64,000 nucleotides of DNA, from the NCBI RefSeq assembly GCF_964355755.1, contig NC_092676.1:24410288-24474287 (forward strand), written 5' to 3'. A model generated the notes under the pieces. It made no database searches, was not told where the DNA came from, and worked only from the letters and a program-made list of their open reading frames with translations. The stretch comes from Antedon mediterranea. Taxonomy: Eukaryota > Echinodermata > Crinoidea > Comatulida > Antedonidae. Both the position numbers and the translations under genes were made by a program. Shown here piece by piece: positions 4,601 to 64,000 of this stretch. The first letter of the stretch is position 1. Each line of letters starts with the position of its first letter.

Positions 4601-8373
<3,773 letters not shown>

Positions 8374-10037: not shown

Positions 10038-12778
<2,741 letters not shown>

Positions 12779-15748: not shown

Positions 15749-19662
<3,914 letters not shown>

Positions 19663-20911: not shown

Positions 20912-23233
<2,322 letters not shown>

Positions 23234-40100: not shown

Positions 40101-41910
40101 CTTTATGCATACAATACGATATTATACAGTTTGCATGTTTTATTCTACCATATTTGGGCATACCACTACCATATTTGGGTATATCACTACCATATTTGGG
40201 CACATCACACTTTTTTTGATAGTGTGAACAGAGCTTTACATTACAAAGCTGTAATTAATAAATAAGTCTTGATATTAACTAAACTGAATTAATTACTTTC
40301 AGACTCCTTTTCAGTCAAGATCGATGGCGAGCATCCATCCGACACCCATTGGTTACCAATACCATGCCAGCAACATGACACAAACAATCACACAGCCAAA
40401 GAACATGTGGCAGGCAGAGACAACCAATGATAACACTCCTACTATACCAGACCTTCAGTACCAACCATCCAGAAGCCCAGACAATCCTCAGCTCATTGCC
40501 AACCCTACAGACATACAGACTCAGGTACTGCTTAAGGGCTCTTCAGATCATGGAAATGATACTCCTACAGAACCACAGTTGATGGGTACACTGCCAGAGA
40601 AACTACCTGAGGGACCTGTCTTGCTGTCGCAGGGTGACACCATTTCCTCAAGAACAAACATAAATGGGTCTCATAAGTTCACCACTCCTTTTAAAGCCTT
40701 CAAGAACTTTAATATTGAGGATGACATGCCAAAAACACCTGAACTAACATTTTCATATGCAAGGTAAGACTCAATAATAATCTGTTTTTTCTTATTATTG
40801 TTCATGTACTACTGTATTATGAAATTATGAAAGTAATAAAACAAAAAAGACTCAATAATGTGGATTCTCTGGCAATGTTTTCTGAGTGCTTGCAATAAAT
40901 GCTTATTTCATCAGTGGCATAACACAGAGGCCTGAGGCTCCTGGTTTAAGGATTCCAAGGAGCCCTCCCATATTTATAGCCTTTTTCCACATGTTTTAAT
41001 GCCTGTGCTGGGTACTGCTCAGGGGCCCCTGTAAGCTCCGGTGGCCGTTGGGTTTAACCAGTGAGCACTCATAGCTGTAACGCCGCTGTATTTCATCTTT
41101 ATAAGGTATGTCGATGTTGGGGCTTCACTTGCAAGTACTAAGGAACAAACTTCAGATTCAACTAATATTGAAAGTGGTACAAGAGAGTTGGTAATGGAAG
41201 AAGTCACTACCACACAAGATGAAGTGGATTCCCAGCCTACTATGCCGCCAGAGACTACTCAGCAACCAAGTAAAGATTGTCATAGGTAAGCTAATGATGA
41301 TGATAAATAACTGTACATTTCTTGCCATTGTCTGAGACTAAAAAGGCACTAAAGTGTCTTTTACATCTGTTCCGGCACGGTTCTGGTCCGGCGAATCGAA
41401 CATCAATTTTTTTTTGTGTCAAACGATATGCGCGCAGCCGTGTGAAAACGAAACATTGACGTTCGATCGGATTTTCCGTGAAAGACCCTCAATTGTTTGA
41501 TTAGATGTTTAATCAATGGTTGTCATGCCTATCTGAACAACCTACAACTTTCTAATGTAATAGATAATGCCTTTTTGTATTGTCCAGTGTAACTTATAAT
41601 ATGATTCATGGAGTATCATTATCTTTGGACTAGATCTGGTGCTATTGCCTTTATTTCTGAGGAAGAGTTCCTAGAGCAATCCAGCTTCTTACAAAGACTT
41701 CTTCCATTGGAAGATGTCAATGCTTGGATCAAAAAGATTAACAAGTACGTGGCCAGGAAGAAAGACAGCCAGTACCTGTTGGAGAGTGAAATAAGTAATC
41801 TTGGAATGGGTCCTCGTGCTAAGGCAATGCTGCTGTTGCTTGTTAAGTTGAAGCGACTTGCTCAAGCACGACCAAACGGTGCAGGCGATCAGGTATATCA
41901 GCTCATTTAG
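37132..41910 (+). CDS. SKA3: spindle and kinetochore-associated protein 3, with SKA1-like C-terminal domain
   Basis: The Ska complex (SKA1-SKA2-SKA3) couples kinetochores to microtubules. Nine coding exons: 37132-37299, 37713-37887, 38616-38694, 38994-39152, 39496-39644, 39863-39936, 40303-40763, 41106-41285, 41634-41910. They join in frame to 573 residues (human SKA3: 412). Residues 1-115 are a predicted coiled coil with FKKLRHLAAKVEKE, EEN and KYGY, matching the human N-terminus. TPTLADFGISRATLDFL and VFTPGLFG match later SKA3 motifs. The middle is Ser/Thr/Pro-rich and probably disordered. Residues 482-573 (AFISEEEF...LPLEDVNAWIKKIN... KAMLLLLVKLKRLAQAR...VYQLI) resemble the microtubule-binding winged helix of SKA1, which human SKA3 lacks. 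The stop at 41910 aligns with the SKA1 C-terminus, which supports the end chosen. A 5' UTR exon is likely. Confidence 0.88.
37520..37668. mobile_element. CArG foldback MITE in SKA3 intron 1
   Basis: Left end TAAGCCTTGTCTACACTGAT carries a small insertion; right end TTTGATAGTGATAGTCAGAG. Has CCATATATGG and CCATATTTGG. It ends 45 bp before exon 2. Confidence 0.88.
37926..38207 (-). mobile_element. tRNA-derived SINE, family 2, in SKA3 intron 2
   Basis: On the - strand it reads GGGGCATGTGGTGTTGAATG, GAGGTTCGAATCCAACTCTC, then GGTGTATAATTGGGAACCTG, GACACAACTTTGCGCTGATT and ATTATGGGAGTATGTTTCCA. Perfect B box GGTTCGAATCC. Other copies at 42407-42690 (+) and 52708-52930 (-). Confidence 0.88.
38328..38481. 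mobile_element. CArG foldback MITE in SKA3 intron 2
   Basis: GAAGCTCTGTCTACACTATC at the left; TTTGATGTGTAGTCAGAGCT at the right. Has TCACTTCCATATTTGGGCAC (a CArG box). Confidence 0.88.
38748..38828. mobile_element. CArG foldback MITE, internally deleted, in SKA3 intron 3
   Basis: Only the ends remain: TTTAAGCTCTGTCTTCATTA at the left, AAGTTTGATAGTTTGGTCAA at the right, with TTGTTGTCACAT between. Confidence 0.8.
39243..39412 (-). mobile_element. tRNA-derived SINE, family 1, partial, in SKA3 intron 4
   Basis: Reverse complement contains CACTCGCTCTATGGTTCTGG, AAGGACTATAAACCGTAGGT and GTACACATCTAGCTCATGTG, matching the body of 32724-32990. The A-box head is missing. Confidence 0.8.
39953..40238. 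mobile_element. two adjacent CArG foldback MITE copies in SKA3 intron 6
   Basis: First copy about 39953-40105 (CTCTGTCTACACACTATCAG to TTTGATATTGTAGTGCAGAG). Second, left-truncated copy about 40143-40238 has three ACCACTACCATATTTGGG-type units and the right end TGATAGTGTGAACAGAGCTT. CCATATTTGG occurs three times. Confidence 0.88.
40912..41088 (-). mobile_element. hAT-like MITE with 8-bp target duplication, next to SKA3 exon 8
   Basis: Starts CAGTGGCATAACACAGAGGC and ends CATAGCTGTAACGCCGCTG. It is flanked by a perfect 8-bp direct repeat TATTTCAT (40904-40911 and 41089-41096). CAGTGGCGTAA-type ends and an 8-bp duplication are typical of hAT elements. The right flank runs into the SKA3 exon 8 acceptor at 41105. 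Confidence 0.9.
41357..41485. mobile_element. foldback MITE, GTCTTTYACACCTG family, in SKA3 intron 8
   Basis: Left GTGTCTTTTACATCTGTTCC, right CGGATTTTCCGTGAAAGACC. These are imperfect inverted repeats. Internal ACGAAACATTGACGTTCGAT resembles AATGAAAAACATTGACATTT of the copy at 43549. Confidence 0.65.
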
Positions 41911-43363: not shown

Positions 43364-46348
43364 TCAATATTCTAATAGAGAATTGACAATGTTGACAAGG
43401 GCATGCTTAGATTCTGAGTCTTCTAAGTCTTCAATGGAATCTAATGCTGCTTGTACATAATTTTTTAGTTCAGACTTTATTGTATCGGTAGCTGGTCCTG
43501 CAGCAATAATTTGGTAAAGCTGCAAAAAAAAAAGGTAAAACGCATCTTTCACACCTGATCCGGACATTTCAATTGAATGAACAGCATTTATTTGTCCAAT
43601 ATAAAATATCAGAAATTTGCTTTCTGTACATATCATATCCTATGTTACAAATAATAAAGAGAACAATATAATATAAAGTCCAAACATATATTCCATAAAG
43701 CCGTGTGGAGCATCGTGCAAAATGAAAAACATTGACATTTAATTTGCTGGTGCCGCACCAGGTGTAAAAGACGCTCAACAATAGTCAACTCCTGCAAAAA
43801 CCGGAAAATCTCCCAAAACCTGAAGGTCCACAATTTGTTTCTACTATGTAAAATGAATAATTATATAACAATTATATTAATAATAATTATTTAATTTACT
43901 GTTTACCTGTTGAAAGTCGGCTGCGTTACTCGCCGTTGACATGGGCAGAGCTTCTCCAGTCGTAATGATGTGTTGAATGTGGAACATCATTGCAGAGGAG
44001 CAAAGATTGAAGGCATCACCAAGTTCATAAGATTCATTTACAAAAGGTTGTAGGTCAAGGTTCAACTACCAAACGAAGAATGTAGAGATTTGTTTGCATA
44101 ATTTAAAAATCATTTACTTTATATTAGATATAAAAATAACAAAACAGACATTTTATTTTCTATGCAGCAACAATGTTCTGTTTACATAGGCAGTAGTATA
44201 ATGGCTAAGAGCGCTCTCTGGCTAAACCCAGGGGCCCCATAGCTTATGGGCCCCAGAGCATAAGCAGCCCCAATGCAACTACCCATCATTTGAGGGCCCC
44301 TTACGAGTGCTAAACCAGGGGCCTTTCCTCCTGTGTCATGCCACTATGCATAGGACCTGCTTTTAGCAAAATTATTAAAAACTAAAACATACTTGTTGTG
44401 CAACTGTTAAGTATTTTCCAAATTGAAAAGCTCTGTTTTGCATGTCTTCATCCTGATTGGCCAGAATCAAAGCTGCCTGGCAACACTTGGCCAATAAGCT
44501 TCCATTAGACAGGTAAACATGATTCAACCAGTCAGCAAAGGTCAGCTGCAGGTTAACGGTGTCCACTGAAAAACCCATGAACTCTGATTCCGTATAATCA
44601 GTAATTGCAGAAGATACCAATTCAACAACCTGATAATGATACATGATCACAGTTAAAATCGTAACAAATACGACAACGACAAATACCAATATGTACATAT
44701 TCTCTGCGGCGCAGTGTCTGTTAAAAGCATGGAACTGGTTGTGTCGCAGCCACAGATAAACCCTTTGATCCCCTGACCTCTAACTAAGGTAATAATAGTT
44801 CCAATGATTACAGTTTTCATACCTGTGTGTTGTGCAGTTTAGCCAGACCTTGGCTAGCATTTGCCAAAAGGAAGTCACCACTTAACACCGACATCTTGTT
44901 GCCAAACTCCAGATCATCTGGTGAGCCGTCTCCAGGCCTAATTTCTTTTAAGTCAATGATGCCACGGTGTACTAGATAGGCGGTGTGAATCATTTCAGAT
45001 ATTTCTGCCAGTGTCCTTTGACTGAAACAAATATACACACACTTTGTAATCTTTCAGTTCATGGTTGCTGCTGCCATGTGTGACATGCCTATTAATAATG
45101 ACCTACTGTACTACCCAATCTAAAGATCTGTCTACACTATCAAACTTGTGACAAAAAATGTGATGTGCTCATAATGGACATGATGATGTCGTATCACTAG
45201 CATATTTGGGTATATCACTACCATATTGGGCACATCACACTTTTTTGGTCAAACTAGTTTGATAGTGTAGACAAAGCTTTAAATTAACCACTGACCTTAC
45301 TACCCAATCTAAAGCTCTGTCTACAGAAATTTACAGTATGTGAGAAAAAAAATGTGATGTGCTCATATATGGACATGATGATGTCGTATCACTAGCATAT
45401 TTGGGTATATCACTACCATATTGGGCACATCACACTTTTTTGGTCAAACTAGTTTGATAGTGTAGACAAAGCTTTAAATTAACCACTGACCTTACTACCC
45501 AATCTAAAGCTCTGTCTACAGAAATTTACAGTATGTGAGAAAAAAAATGTGATGTGCTCAAATATGGACATGATGATGTCATATCACTACCATATTTGGG
45601 TATATCACTTCCATATTTGGGAACATCACACTTTTTTTGTCAAACTAGTTTGATAGTGTAGACAGAGCTTTAAATTAACTTTATTTACACATGAAATCTC
45701 AGTTTGTTGCCTTTTCTTCAGCACCTTGGATACTTACCTTTGGTAGACGTTATGTGAGTTGTCTTGGGCATCAGGTGGTAGTCCAGCCGCTCTTGACAGA
45801 AGCAAAATTACAAGACCTCTAGTTTGGAGATTACTACCTTCATAGACAAATGATCTATAAAATATAAATTATTAAATATTATTGCATGCTGGTTGTTGTT
45901 ATTTCTTATTTATTTTCTTCTGCTGTAGCTGAAAAGAGGTATTTACAAATACATATATTTCAATTATTTAACAATAACATTGTCATACATACTTTGCCGT
46001 TTTTAAAATAGGGTGATTGGTTCCGACTAATTTCCTCACGTGTAGAGCAACATTTGCGAGTTCATCACTCAAAAGTGTTCTTAAGCTCATAAACGAGGTG
46101 GGATATCCGACCAAACGTTCACCTTCTGACACAGCCTTGTTCCAGGCACTGGTATCACCAGATGCAAATAAACTAGAATTTCGACAATGATGGTCGATTC
46201 TTGAATCAGCAAGCAATGTGGTTTGTTTACAATGAAAAGTTGATCTGGGGTGCAGCTGCTTCTGAAAACATGCTGACCAATTAGAAAAACACTTAATGCT
46301 TGAGGTTTGTTGACTGATGCGAAGTATGTTATGAATTTTAAATTTCAT
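43364..46348 (-). CDS. PDSS2: decaprenyl diphosphate synthase subunit 2
   Basis: Partner of PDSS1 in the mitochondrial enzyme that makes the polyprenyl tail of ubiquinone. Six exons (- strand): 45993-46348, 45738-45854, 44823-45021, 44393-44629, 43907-44065, 43364-43519. All junctions stay in frame, giving 407 residues (human 399). The first about 70 residues are rich in Arg, Lys, Ser and Gln with no acidic cluster and look like a mitochondrial presequence. [55 protein letters not shown] and [17 protein letters not shown] match the human protein closely. At the usual DDxxD site there is LVHRGIID, so the Mg-binding aspartates are absent, as is normal for PDSS2 as opposed to PDSS1. An in-frame TAA precedes the ATG. 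Intron 2 holds a tandem MITE array. Head to head with MLYCD. Confidence 0.95.
43549..43782. mobile_element. foldback MITE, GTCTTTYACACCTG family, in PDSS2 intron 5
   Basis: Left GCATCTTTCACACCTGATCC and right GGTGCCGCACCAGGTGTAAA followed by AGACGC are inverted repeats of each other. It fills about 60% of a 387-bp intron. Confidence 0.78.
44191..44346 (+). mobile_element. hAT-like MITE with near-perfect 8-bp target duplication, PDSS2 intron 4
   Basis: Starts CAGTAGTATAATGGCTAAGA and ends TCCTGTGTCATGCCACTA. Flanks are TACATAGG (44183-44190) and TGCATAGG (44347-44354), one mismatch. Internal GGGGCCCCAT and TGGGCCCC words match the family. Confidence 0.82.
44692..44782 (-). mobile_element. foldback MITE, TGTGGCTGCGACA family, partial, PDSS2 intron 3
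   Basis: On the - strand reads GATCAAAGGGTTTATCTGTG, GCTGCGACA, CCATGCTTTTAACAGACACT and AGAATATGTACA, matching the left parts of 20022 and 26192. The right end is missing. Confidence 0.75.
45105..45675. mobile_element. tandem array of three CArG foldback MITEs in PDSS2 intron 2
   Basis: Copies at about 45122-45283, 45308-45475 and 45503-45675. The last two are joined in a 195-bp direct repeat that includes the linker AAATTAACCACTGACCTTAC and CTACCCAATC, and both have lost the normal left inner terminus (CTGTCTACAGAAATTTACAG). Single-element transposition would not give this, so the unit was duplicated after insertion. Confidence 0.88.
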
Positions 46349-47384: not shown

Positions 47385-50300
47385 ATGATGGCAGCATCTG
47401 TGTTTAGGAGGTGTATAATAAGGGTAAGAATGACATAATTTATGAATTGTAAACCTGTCTAATTTCCATTACCTAGGCCTAATCCTGCAAGCTAATAGTG
47501 AAGCACTAAGCTTACTAGCTTACCTTACTAATACTAGGCCTAGGGCCTAGTTAGGCCTAGGCTAGCCTAGCCTAGGAGGCCAGCAATTGGCGTATTGGCA
47601 TACTATAATGACGGTGGTCATTTCGCCTGTCATTGTTGTATAAAATACTACAGTGAGATAGTAGAATGGAAAGCTTCGCTTTTACGAATAGAATATCCTA
47701 ACCCAATCATTATTTTTAACATTTATGTTTTAAAACAGAATTGCCTTGTTGTGAAATCATGCAAACATCATCCCTGCAGCAGCAAGATTTGTCATAAGAA
47801 AATGTCATCCTCACAATATGATACGCACAACACAAAATCATTGTTTAGCATTCTTGGAGAATTTGAAGTAAACAGTTCAAGTAAAAGATCGGTGGGGTCA
47901 CAACAGCCATGGGTCTCAGAGGTAAAATCTGTCAAGTGTTATGCTTTTTAGAAAGTAATAAAATAAACATCTTTATTTCTTTTTATTCTAATTAATATTA
48001 TTTATTGTTATCTTTACAGGAACAAGTGGGAAACTTCTGTCAACGGTATCAAAAACTTGGGGTGAAAGAGAAAGCTGAGGTTTTATTGTTCCTGTCTGAA
48101 CGATGCGGCGTGAACCATTCAGATGCAATGTCTGCAGCTTCAGTATTGGCCGCAGCCAAAGTAAATCACTTTTTAGTAATAACCATCCTTTGGGATTGGT
48201 CATTCGCTTGCGTTGCAGCTTACGTCCTTGTGTTGCATCCTAGTGTGAACCAAGCTTAAAATAACCATCAGAAGCAATAACAATATAAAATTCTGTGTGG
48301 AAAATTACGTTGGTTATAAAAAATAATAATTGGTTACAAATATAAGTTGGTTTTAAAATGTATATCTTTGCATCAATTACAAAGAGTCATTAATTAGAAT
48401 AAGACAATTTTTAAGTTTTCATAATTTTGTCTCCCAAGATTAATTACTTTTTTGTTTTGTTTAGGATGACCCATCAATCTTTACATATGAACACCGTTTA
48501 CAGGAGTCACTGTCGCCCAAATACTCGCACTTATTCACAATGATCAGCCGTACACCAAATGGTGTCAAGTTTCTAGTCGACATGAGAAGTAACATTTTGG
48601 TAATTACGTTTTGTTTATATACATATATTGTACAGTAAATATTGATATGTACTCTATTAATAGATTGTAAACCAGTATAAATTTAACTGATGTTCAAGAC
48701 AATACACTAATCGAAATCAGAGGAAAATGTTTTCACTGTACAGTATATAATTTATAATACACCTATTTATAGTAGAATGTTAAAATCAGACAAACTTCAT
48801 CCCCAGCCTTGCTGTATGTAAAAAGGATATGTTATCATGAATGACATAGACAGCATGTTGGCTCTGACGATTCACCTGCACCCAATCCCAGTTCAGCTTT
48901 GCTTTGAGCTGCAAAGGGAGCAATGCACCAAGCTCTAAGAGCATGATTGCAATTATACACAATAATTTGTTATAAATTGTTTTACTTTTTTGTGTTTTAG
49001 GATTTACTTTCCACTCCATTAAGTCAGAATGAAGCAGAACCTTTAAAACACTTGAATATAAGTCTACGCGGTCTACTAGCTCACTGGTTCTCTACCGGCT
49101 TGCTTAACCTACAGCGGATAACATGGCAAACATCTTGCGATATGCTACAGAAGGTACGGTAGGACATTTTTTAGGTTAACACGTCATGCATAACCTGACA
49201 AGCAAAATGTGATGCCGAGCATGACAGCGCCCCCTTCTCCCTCCCCACCACACCATACAAATATGTGATGACGAGCACAACAGCCCTCCCCCACCTCACC
49301 ATGGAATGATGTAATGTCGTAAGCAACAAAGTTACAGTATTCAAATACTTACTATCACATGTGGTGTGCCCAAATATGGTAGTGATATGCCCAAATATAG
49401 TAGTGATATGCCCAACTATAGTAGTGATATGTCATCATCATGTCCATATATGGGCACATCACATTTTGTTGTCACATAAAGTTGAATGGTGTAGACTGGA
49501 TCTGTCACATATTGGTCATGTTTTGTCTTTTGTTTTGTGAATTGTAAAGTTAAATTTTTATTTTTTAAACATGGTAGGTGAGTGAATATGAGGCAGTGCA
49601 TCCAGTAAAGAATTGGTTGGATTTAAAGAATAGAGTTGGTGCCTATAGACGTTGTTTTGTTTTCACGCACAATAGTATGCCAACAGAACCAGTTGTGGTA
49701 CTACACACGGCTCTTACAAGTGATATATGTAGTAAAATTCAGGTAGGCTATGGTTAATGGTTCACACAAAAGCATTGAAGTGCTATCAAAGTTATTACAC
49801 TATAATATGGATGCCATAAACACTACACCATAGATTCATTGTTGATGGAGTATGCTAAATATAATAAATATACATAATTATTACAATGAATATTAATTTG
49901 TTTCAGTCAATAGTTGAGAGAACTGAGGGTGGTGATACATTATTGGATAGGGAAGATGTTAACCGCATCAATGCAGCCATCTTTTATTCGGTTACGTCAA
50001 CTCAACGAGGTAATACCTAAAACTTCTCAAATTTATTTCTTCGTAATAAAACTAAAATAACTTAAAATACGAAATCATACTACTGTATTTGCTATGTTAA
50101 GTGAAATAATTTTTAAAAAAATGTTTAATTAATCTGCAGGATTACAAGGTATTGATCTTGGTAATTATCTAATCAAAACGGTCGTTCAAAAGCTTCGTGC
50201 CGAGTTTCCTAACATGAACGTCTTTTCAAGTTTGTCTCCAATTCCAGGATTTCGCGATTGGTTATTACAAGAAATGAACAACACTATTCGAGGTAAGTGG

Positions 50301-62856: not shown

Positions 62857-64000
62857 TCAAATAATTTCACTTGGAGTTTTATAAACTGTTTGATTTGGTA
62901 CACGGGTATACGTAACCGCCTGCAGACTTGACGCTTTACTGGCAGGGTCAGAGTTCACTCCATAGCCTTCAGTTGGCAAGATAACAGTCTTCAGGGCTGG
63001 GGACGTTCTGTATGACGTCGGTGCGGCAGACGCGGTGGTATTTACGGGCTGGTGTTTCTTTTTCGTAAATCCAAATGTCATATCGCAGCATTTCATCCAG
63101 CTGGTTATTGTCTTAGGGCCTGTTTCTATAGAGCAGAGAATACGGTTTTGAATACCGTTCTTTTCAAGAACCGTTTTTTCTTGCCAGCAGAAATGGGTCC
63201 CCACAAAAAACCACAAAAAAGAACCGATCTTAAAAACGGTTTCAAAAACCCCAATTGATTGCGGTCTCGATCGCAAAGAACCGTTCTGAAACCGGTTTCC
63301 GCGGAGCAATTTTTAGCTGCAACACAATCGCGGTCTCAATTTGACCCCAAAAACTGAACTCTGCAGTCTGCTGCACTGGGATGATTGCGGTCAACTCGCA
63401 GTCAAACTCGCGCGATAGGACCTAGGCCTAAGTCATTTTTATTTCTCTAGATAGTGAGTATTTTATTTAACTAAAAAATGTTGACCGATGCTATTACGAG
63501 GTTCGTAAAAAATATGTGAAGGAAAGAAGATGAGGGGACTTGTCGGGAGTCGGAAGAAAGACTCGCGTATAATAGGCCTACATGTTTTTAAGAATATTGT
63601 AAAGCGTGTGAAAAATAGACGAGTTCAACTTGACAATATCAGAGGGTGCGACGTAGGCCTACCTATACTTTAACCAAGGACCACAATAACGTTTCAGGTA
63701 ATAATTCCCCCTTCTATGATGAAATGGATGCTATTTCTTGGGGATCGCGCTATGCGAAAAAAAGTAAACATGACCTCGATCAAATCGCGCTTCCGCCTAA
63801 CGAACTGCATTGTGGTGTATATAATGACGTCATTCATAACGAACGCACATGGACGGAACCGGTTTTATTGGAGTAAAAATTGAGCTGCAACGCGATCTTT
63901 ATTTATAAACAACAGCCGAAACCGGTTTCCAAAAAACCGTTCTTTTTTTATTTTTCAATAGAAACAGGCCCTTAGAGCTTAATATCCACATGCCACTGGT
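62857..64000 (-). CDS. Frizzled receptor, C-terminal coding end, split by a transposon
   Basis: Host coding parts are 63972-64000 and 62857-63115 on the - strand. The first piece reads TSGMWILSS, the end of transmembrane helix 7. The second continues KTITSWMKCCDMTFGF and a polar tail ending TPSEII, with stop TGA at 62857-62859. TSGMWI.S.KT...W is the Frizzled signature, and KTITSW is the KTxxxW motif that binds the Dishevelled PDZ domain. Between them sits an 856-bp Harbinger-type element plus a duplicated TTA. Removing the element and one TTA restores one open frame of 94 codons. As assembled, the frame enters the element and meets TAA at 63899-63901 after 23 foreign codons, losing KTxxxW and the tail. 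Splicing around the insert, or an uninserted allele, cannot be excluded. Upstream part is outside the window. Confidence 0.82.
63116..63971. mobile_element. non-autonomous PIF/Harbinger-type element 2
   Basis: 856 bp with ends GGGCCTGTTTCTATAGAGCA and, at the right, the complement of GGGCCTGTTTCTATTGAAAA. Subterminal AACGGTTTT and AAACCGGTTTC words occur at both ends. TTA duplications lie at 63113-63115 and 63972-63974. It has the same GGG(C/T)(C/A)TGTT(T/C) start as element 1 but different internal sequence. Confidence 0.9.
63646..63876 (+). pseudogene. Myb/SANT-like gene fragment in Harbinger-type element 2
   Basis: A 76-codon frame with TKDHNNVSGNNSPFYDEMDA followed by ISWGSRYAKK. The KD.N..SGN...FYDEMDAI.G pattern is the third helix region of the Myb/SANT-like protein of Harbinger elements. 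The first two helices are missing upstream, so it is a remnant. Confidence 0.6.

Follow-up and report, generated by a model that had tools for sequence, protein, structure and literature searches.

The ancestral bilaterian Frizzled set consisted of four receptors, Fz1/2/7, Fz5/8, Fz4 and Fz9/10 (PMC4669655), and the KTxxxW motif is essential for Wnt signalling to β-catenin (PMC5087658). When mFZD4 is cut just before the tryptophan of this motif, Norrin-induced TCF activation is nearly lost with the protein still expressed, and no recruitment of DVL2 is detectable (PMC4834752). Insect Fz4 is found without KTxxxW, a loss common to Diptera and Lepidoptera, and a decoy role has been proposed for it (PMC10560568). 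Harbinger transposons are flanked by 3-bp duplications and encode a transposase together with a Myb-like protein (PMC9179366). Our literature search found no paper on a Frizzled gene disrupted by a transposon; the locus described here adds one more example to a familiar class of mutation, the insertion of a young MITE-like element into a coding exon.

The window (the whole 64,000-nucleotide stretch that was analysed, C7:24410288-24474287 of a 354-Mb animal genome in which contig sizes point to roughly 11 chromosome-size contigs) ends inside the Frizzled gene, which extends upstream past the window edge (L003, C7:24472752-24476675). Its coding region is a single open exon, intronless, running from a plausible ATG (MEASW...) through a leader-like start, the Fz domain and the seven-transmembrane domain. 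Pfam recognises both domains (PF01534 Frizzled, 424 bits; PF01392 Fz domain, 106 bits), and these scores, together with three paralogues in which TM7 runs uninterrupted into KTxxxW, bear out the Frizzled assignment made in the first-pass annotation.

The gene lies on the minus strand and is split by an 856-bp element between TTA duplications, with ends of 22 nt that are 91% complementary (terminal inverted repeats GGGCCTGTTTCTAT; Table 1). The insertion point falls inside the lysine codon of KTxxxW, after its second base (AA|G), so that K is retained and TxxxW is lost. The first-pass annotation had already drawn the same bounds for the element and had placed the end of TM7 and the KTITSW-containing tail on either side of it, at coordinates that we confirmed; its statement that the gene is split exactly before KTxxxW stands as to the split and fails as to ‘before’.

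The assembled open reading frame has 547 codons, and ends with the lysine, exactly 23 residues supplied by the element (GLFLLKNKKRTVFWKPVSAVVYK) and a stop at 63899-63901. When the element and one TTA are removed, the flanks form a single frame of 608 codons from MEASW to KTITSW and the tail, and the insertion therefore costs the receptor 84 residues and adds 23. Translation thus agrees with the earlier claims that excision restores one frame and that the assembled receptor stops after TM7 with 23 element-encoded residues and no KTxxxW, with the qualification that the lysine itself is kept. Since KTxxxW after TM7 is absent from the assembled frame and present once the flanks are joined, the locus is a disrupted Frizzled allele and not an intact member of the family. 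As assembled, the receptor would retain its cysteine-rich domain (CRD) and seven transmembrane helices.

Table 1. Features of the window, with positions counted from its first nucleotide.
Feature	Position	Strand	Evidence
Alpha-tubulin-like coding regions	1-777, 7018-8373, 11612-12778, 18313-19662, 21881-23233	+	
Separated Frizzled 3' coding end: KTITSW and C-terminal tail ...YKTPSEII*	62857-63115	-	
Target-site duplication copy 2: TTA	63113-63115		
Element of 856 bp, assigned as a non-autonomous PIF/Harbinger, MITE-like internal-deletion derivative	63116-63971		
Terminal inverted repeat, gene-distal end, GGGCCTGTTTCTATAGAGCAGA	63116-63137	+	
Divergent Harbinger Myb/SANT frame remnant within the short element	63475-63816	+	tblastn
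G completing the Lys codon, 23 element codons (GLFLLKNKKRTVFWKPVSAVVYK) and premature TAA stop	63899-63971	-	
Terminal inverted repeat, gene-proximal end, GGGCCTGTTTCTATTGAAAAAT	63950-63971	-	
Target-site duplication copy 1: TTA on the plus strand, read as TAA in the gene	63972-63974		
Frizzled TM7 end: TSGMWILSS and bases 1-2 of the Lys codon	63972-64000	-	translation, Pfam

Elsewhere in the window, at least five coding regions that look like alpha-tubulin stand in tandem on the plus strand, as recognised by eye from translations (Table 1). A 195-bp unit is present in three copies, 94% matching, at 45109-45679, and repeats of 21 bp at 40145-40208 and 49367-49431 have a similar motif, TTTGGGCATATCA-like.

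A genome search found four Frizzled genes. Besides the window gene these are Fz1/2/7 (L001; best solved relative FZD7, 708 bits), Fz5/8 (L002; FZD5, 751 bits) and Fz4 (L004; FZD4, 677 bits), all intact, with TM7 leading straight into the KTxxxW region. Over its whole chain the window gene matches FZD4 best (536 bits), in a comparison where the solved matches include no FZD9/10 transmembrane chain; its CRD fits solved FZD10 best, by a narrow margin (147 bits, against 145.6 for FZD5). With what we take to be the human FZD10 sequence, the window gene scores higher than its paralogues, at 593 bits against 548 for the Fz4 paralogue. On the strength of the CRD fit, this presumed FZD10 comparison and one-to-one elimination against the ancestral set, we class the window gene as the genome's single Fz9/10-class Frizzled. 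Another locus with a weak Pfam Frizzled match (L008, C7:22231303-22234782) looks adhesion-GPCR-like, with a long extracellular part followed by a 7TM region as judged from translation only, and does not look like a fifth Frizzled.

The origin of the element was traced by comparing the positions of its ends with those of transposases, which led to a 6,311-bp relative (C1:17464433-17470743) whose ends are the same and whose TAA duplications are perfect, with a split DDE_Tnp_4 frame (PF13359, 67.5 bits, above the curated cut-off) and a Myb_DNA-bind_4 frame (Myb/SANT; PF13837, 51.5 bits). The short element matches the ends of this relative at 78% over its own positions 1-640 and at 95% over 643-856, and it contains a Myb/SANT remnant (36.5% identity over 126 aa, tblastn E 5.6e-11). 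Because a long relative with the same ends carries both frames, the short element is, by sequence comparison, a non-autonomous PIF/Harbinger derivative that arose by internal deletion, and the Harbinger-type call of the first reading is upheld. The 30 best-scoring DDE_Tnp_4 loci all lack the element ends. Three intermediates of about 2.3-4.0 kb (L066, L067, L068) have the same ends and no transposase match, which suggests that internal deletion took place several times, or that insertions were nested. Two other superfamilies were considered and dropped, CACTA for ends that are not CACTA and piggyBac for a duplication that is not TTAA, with the DDE_Tnp_4 frame of the long relative telling against both.

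Searching the genome with the short element gave 41 matches, 38 of them near-full-length at 95-100% identity, which makes 38 the minimum number of near-full copies in the family. With at most three mismatches, one end sequence is present about 211 times and the other about 145 times. Among 20 extracted copies the flanking 3-mers match in 14, against a mean of 3.5 after shuffling and a maximum of 10 in 20,000 shuffles. The duplications include TTA, TAA, TAG, TAT, ATA, TTC and TCT, so the target leans towards A+T and is not strictly TWA. The flanking 3-mers of the other six copies (L012, L013, L016, L022, L023 and L027) do not match, possibly through inexact repair, recombination or later mutation; L012, which is identical to the window copy, is flanked by AAA/ATA. 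When the flanks of 19 other copies were joined, none of the joined sites fell deep within an open frame of at least 100 codons, and the Frizzled insertion looks unusual among the copies checked, by a criterion that would miss short exons.

The window copy is identical, at 856 of 856 positions, to the copy at C3:17857844-17858704, and differs from the 20-copy consensus by no substitution apart from a 6-nt TAGGCC variant that is present in 7 of the 20. The mean divergence among these 20 copies is 0.66%, and the family looks recently active. With no substitutions in 856 bp against the consensus, the insertion is most likely very recent; a recent polymorphic insertion was one of three options raised at first reading. 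The corresponding upper bound on divergence is approximately 0.35% (Poisson, 95%, 3/856), which bounds the age loosely, a figure in years needing an assumed mutation rate. Both halves of the gene are open, as is expected after a recent insertion whether they are used or not.

The reading that we prefer, with a probability of about 0.78, is a recent PIF/Harbinger insertion in the lysine codon of the sole Fz9/10 gene, giving a young and most likely segregating allele whose product would act as a null, hypomorph or decoy. A recently active non-autonomous element transposed into an exonic TTA site, within the KTxxxW lysine codon in the single coding exon of this gene; the resulting allele would be carried on one haplotype or by some individuals, and its product, provided that it is made and is stable, would be able to bind Wnt without recruiting Dishevelled. 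Since the reference individual has lost the tail of a developmental receptor, a segregating allele is the simplest account, and the insertion is probably not carried by every individual. The allele may be heterozygous and have been taken up into a haploid assembly, in which the genome search found no second copy or alternative haplotype of the Frizzled tail.

The alternative that survives best is that the truncation is fixed, with the gene now encoding a functional tail-less Fz9/10-class decoy that binds Wnt without Dishevelled recruitment. The gene being the only Fz9/10 copy in the genome, its open CRD and 7TM frames, and the precedent of insect Fz4, with KTxxxW lost and a decoy role proposed (PMC10560568), all fit such a history; it is nevertheless unlikely, as 0 substitutions in 856 positions leave little time for fixation and a new function, and the lost tail shows no decay. 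We find it more doubtful still that a fixed, element-encoded C-terminus made the lineage's sole Fz9/10 a Dishevelled-blind decoy very quickly. A stable natural truncation of the receptor is possible.

The chance that the element is instead spliced from the mRNA like an intron, leaving a normal or nearly normal receptor, we regard as very slim. The frame upstream of KTITSW is open for approximately 66 codons inside the element, making an inexact in-frame splice conceivable, and CTAAG is present at the right edge of the element. Against this, the left edge (AAG|GGCC) offers no GT or GC donor, exact GT-AG or GC-AG removal being impossible there, and no donor-acceptor pair scoring at least 70 with simple consensus matrices joins TM7 in frame to KTITSW, in a coding region that is otherwise intronless. 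Splicing, one of the options raised by the first-pass annotation, is not supported. Read in gene sense, the element also contains AATAAA five times, once overlapping the new stop, so premature polyadenylation is possible as well. Least probable of all is an assembly artefact with a repeat misplaced into an intact Frizzled gene, for although near-identical copies elsewhere can confuse assembly, a matching TTA duplication and two halves that make one Frizzled exon are unexpected from a misjoin, and, with a single occurrence of the tail in the genome, no second locus has been merged.

On the preferred reading of a young, segregating insertion, the expected consequence follows from the published mFZD4 truncation, the KTxxxW requirement and insect Fz4: the truncated product, if expressed, would be a null, hypomorph or decoy and not a normal receptor. 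The mechanism of mutation is itself ordinary; what makes the case interesting is that a sole Fz9/10 gene was hit at just the point where the insertion removes precisely the Dishevelled-binding motif and the tail. If the allele is segregating, carriers would permit an in vivo test of Fz9/10 tail function; if it is fixed, it would be a way of gaining a decoy receptor quickly.

Compared with known systems, the window gene resembles Fz9/10-class Frizzleds in its CRD and 7TM domains, in FZD10 being its best CRD match and in the KTxxxW that directly follows TM7 at the empty site, and departs from them, as assembled, in being without TxxxW and the tail. The element shares with non-autonomous PIF/Harbinger elements, such as Tourist-like MITEs and internal-deletion derivatives, its GGGCCTGTTTC-type terminal inverted repeats, its 3-bp duplications, its many near-identical copies and a long DDE_Tnp_4 and Myb/SANT relative; it differs in having duplications beyond TTA/TAA (TAG, TAT, ATA, TTC and TCT), and many MITEs are shorter than this family (846-859 bp). 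Like insect Fz4 (PMC10560568), the locus presents a Frizzled without its Dishevelled-binding motif, whereas the loss in insects spans Diptera and Lepidoptera and that described here stems from an insertion that is most likely recent.
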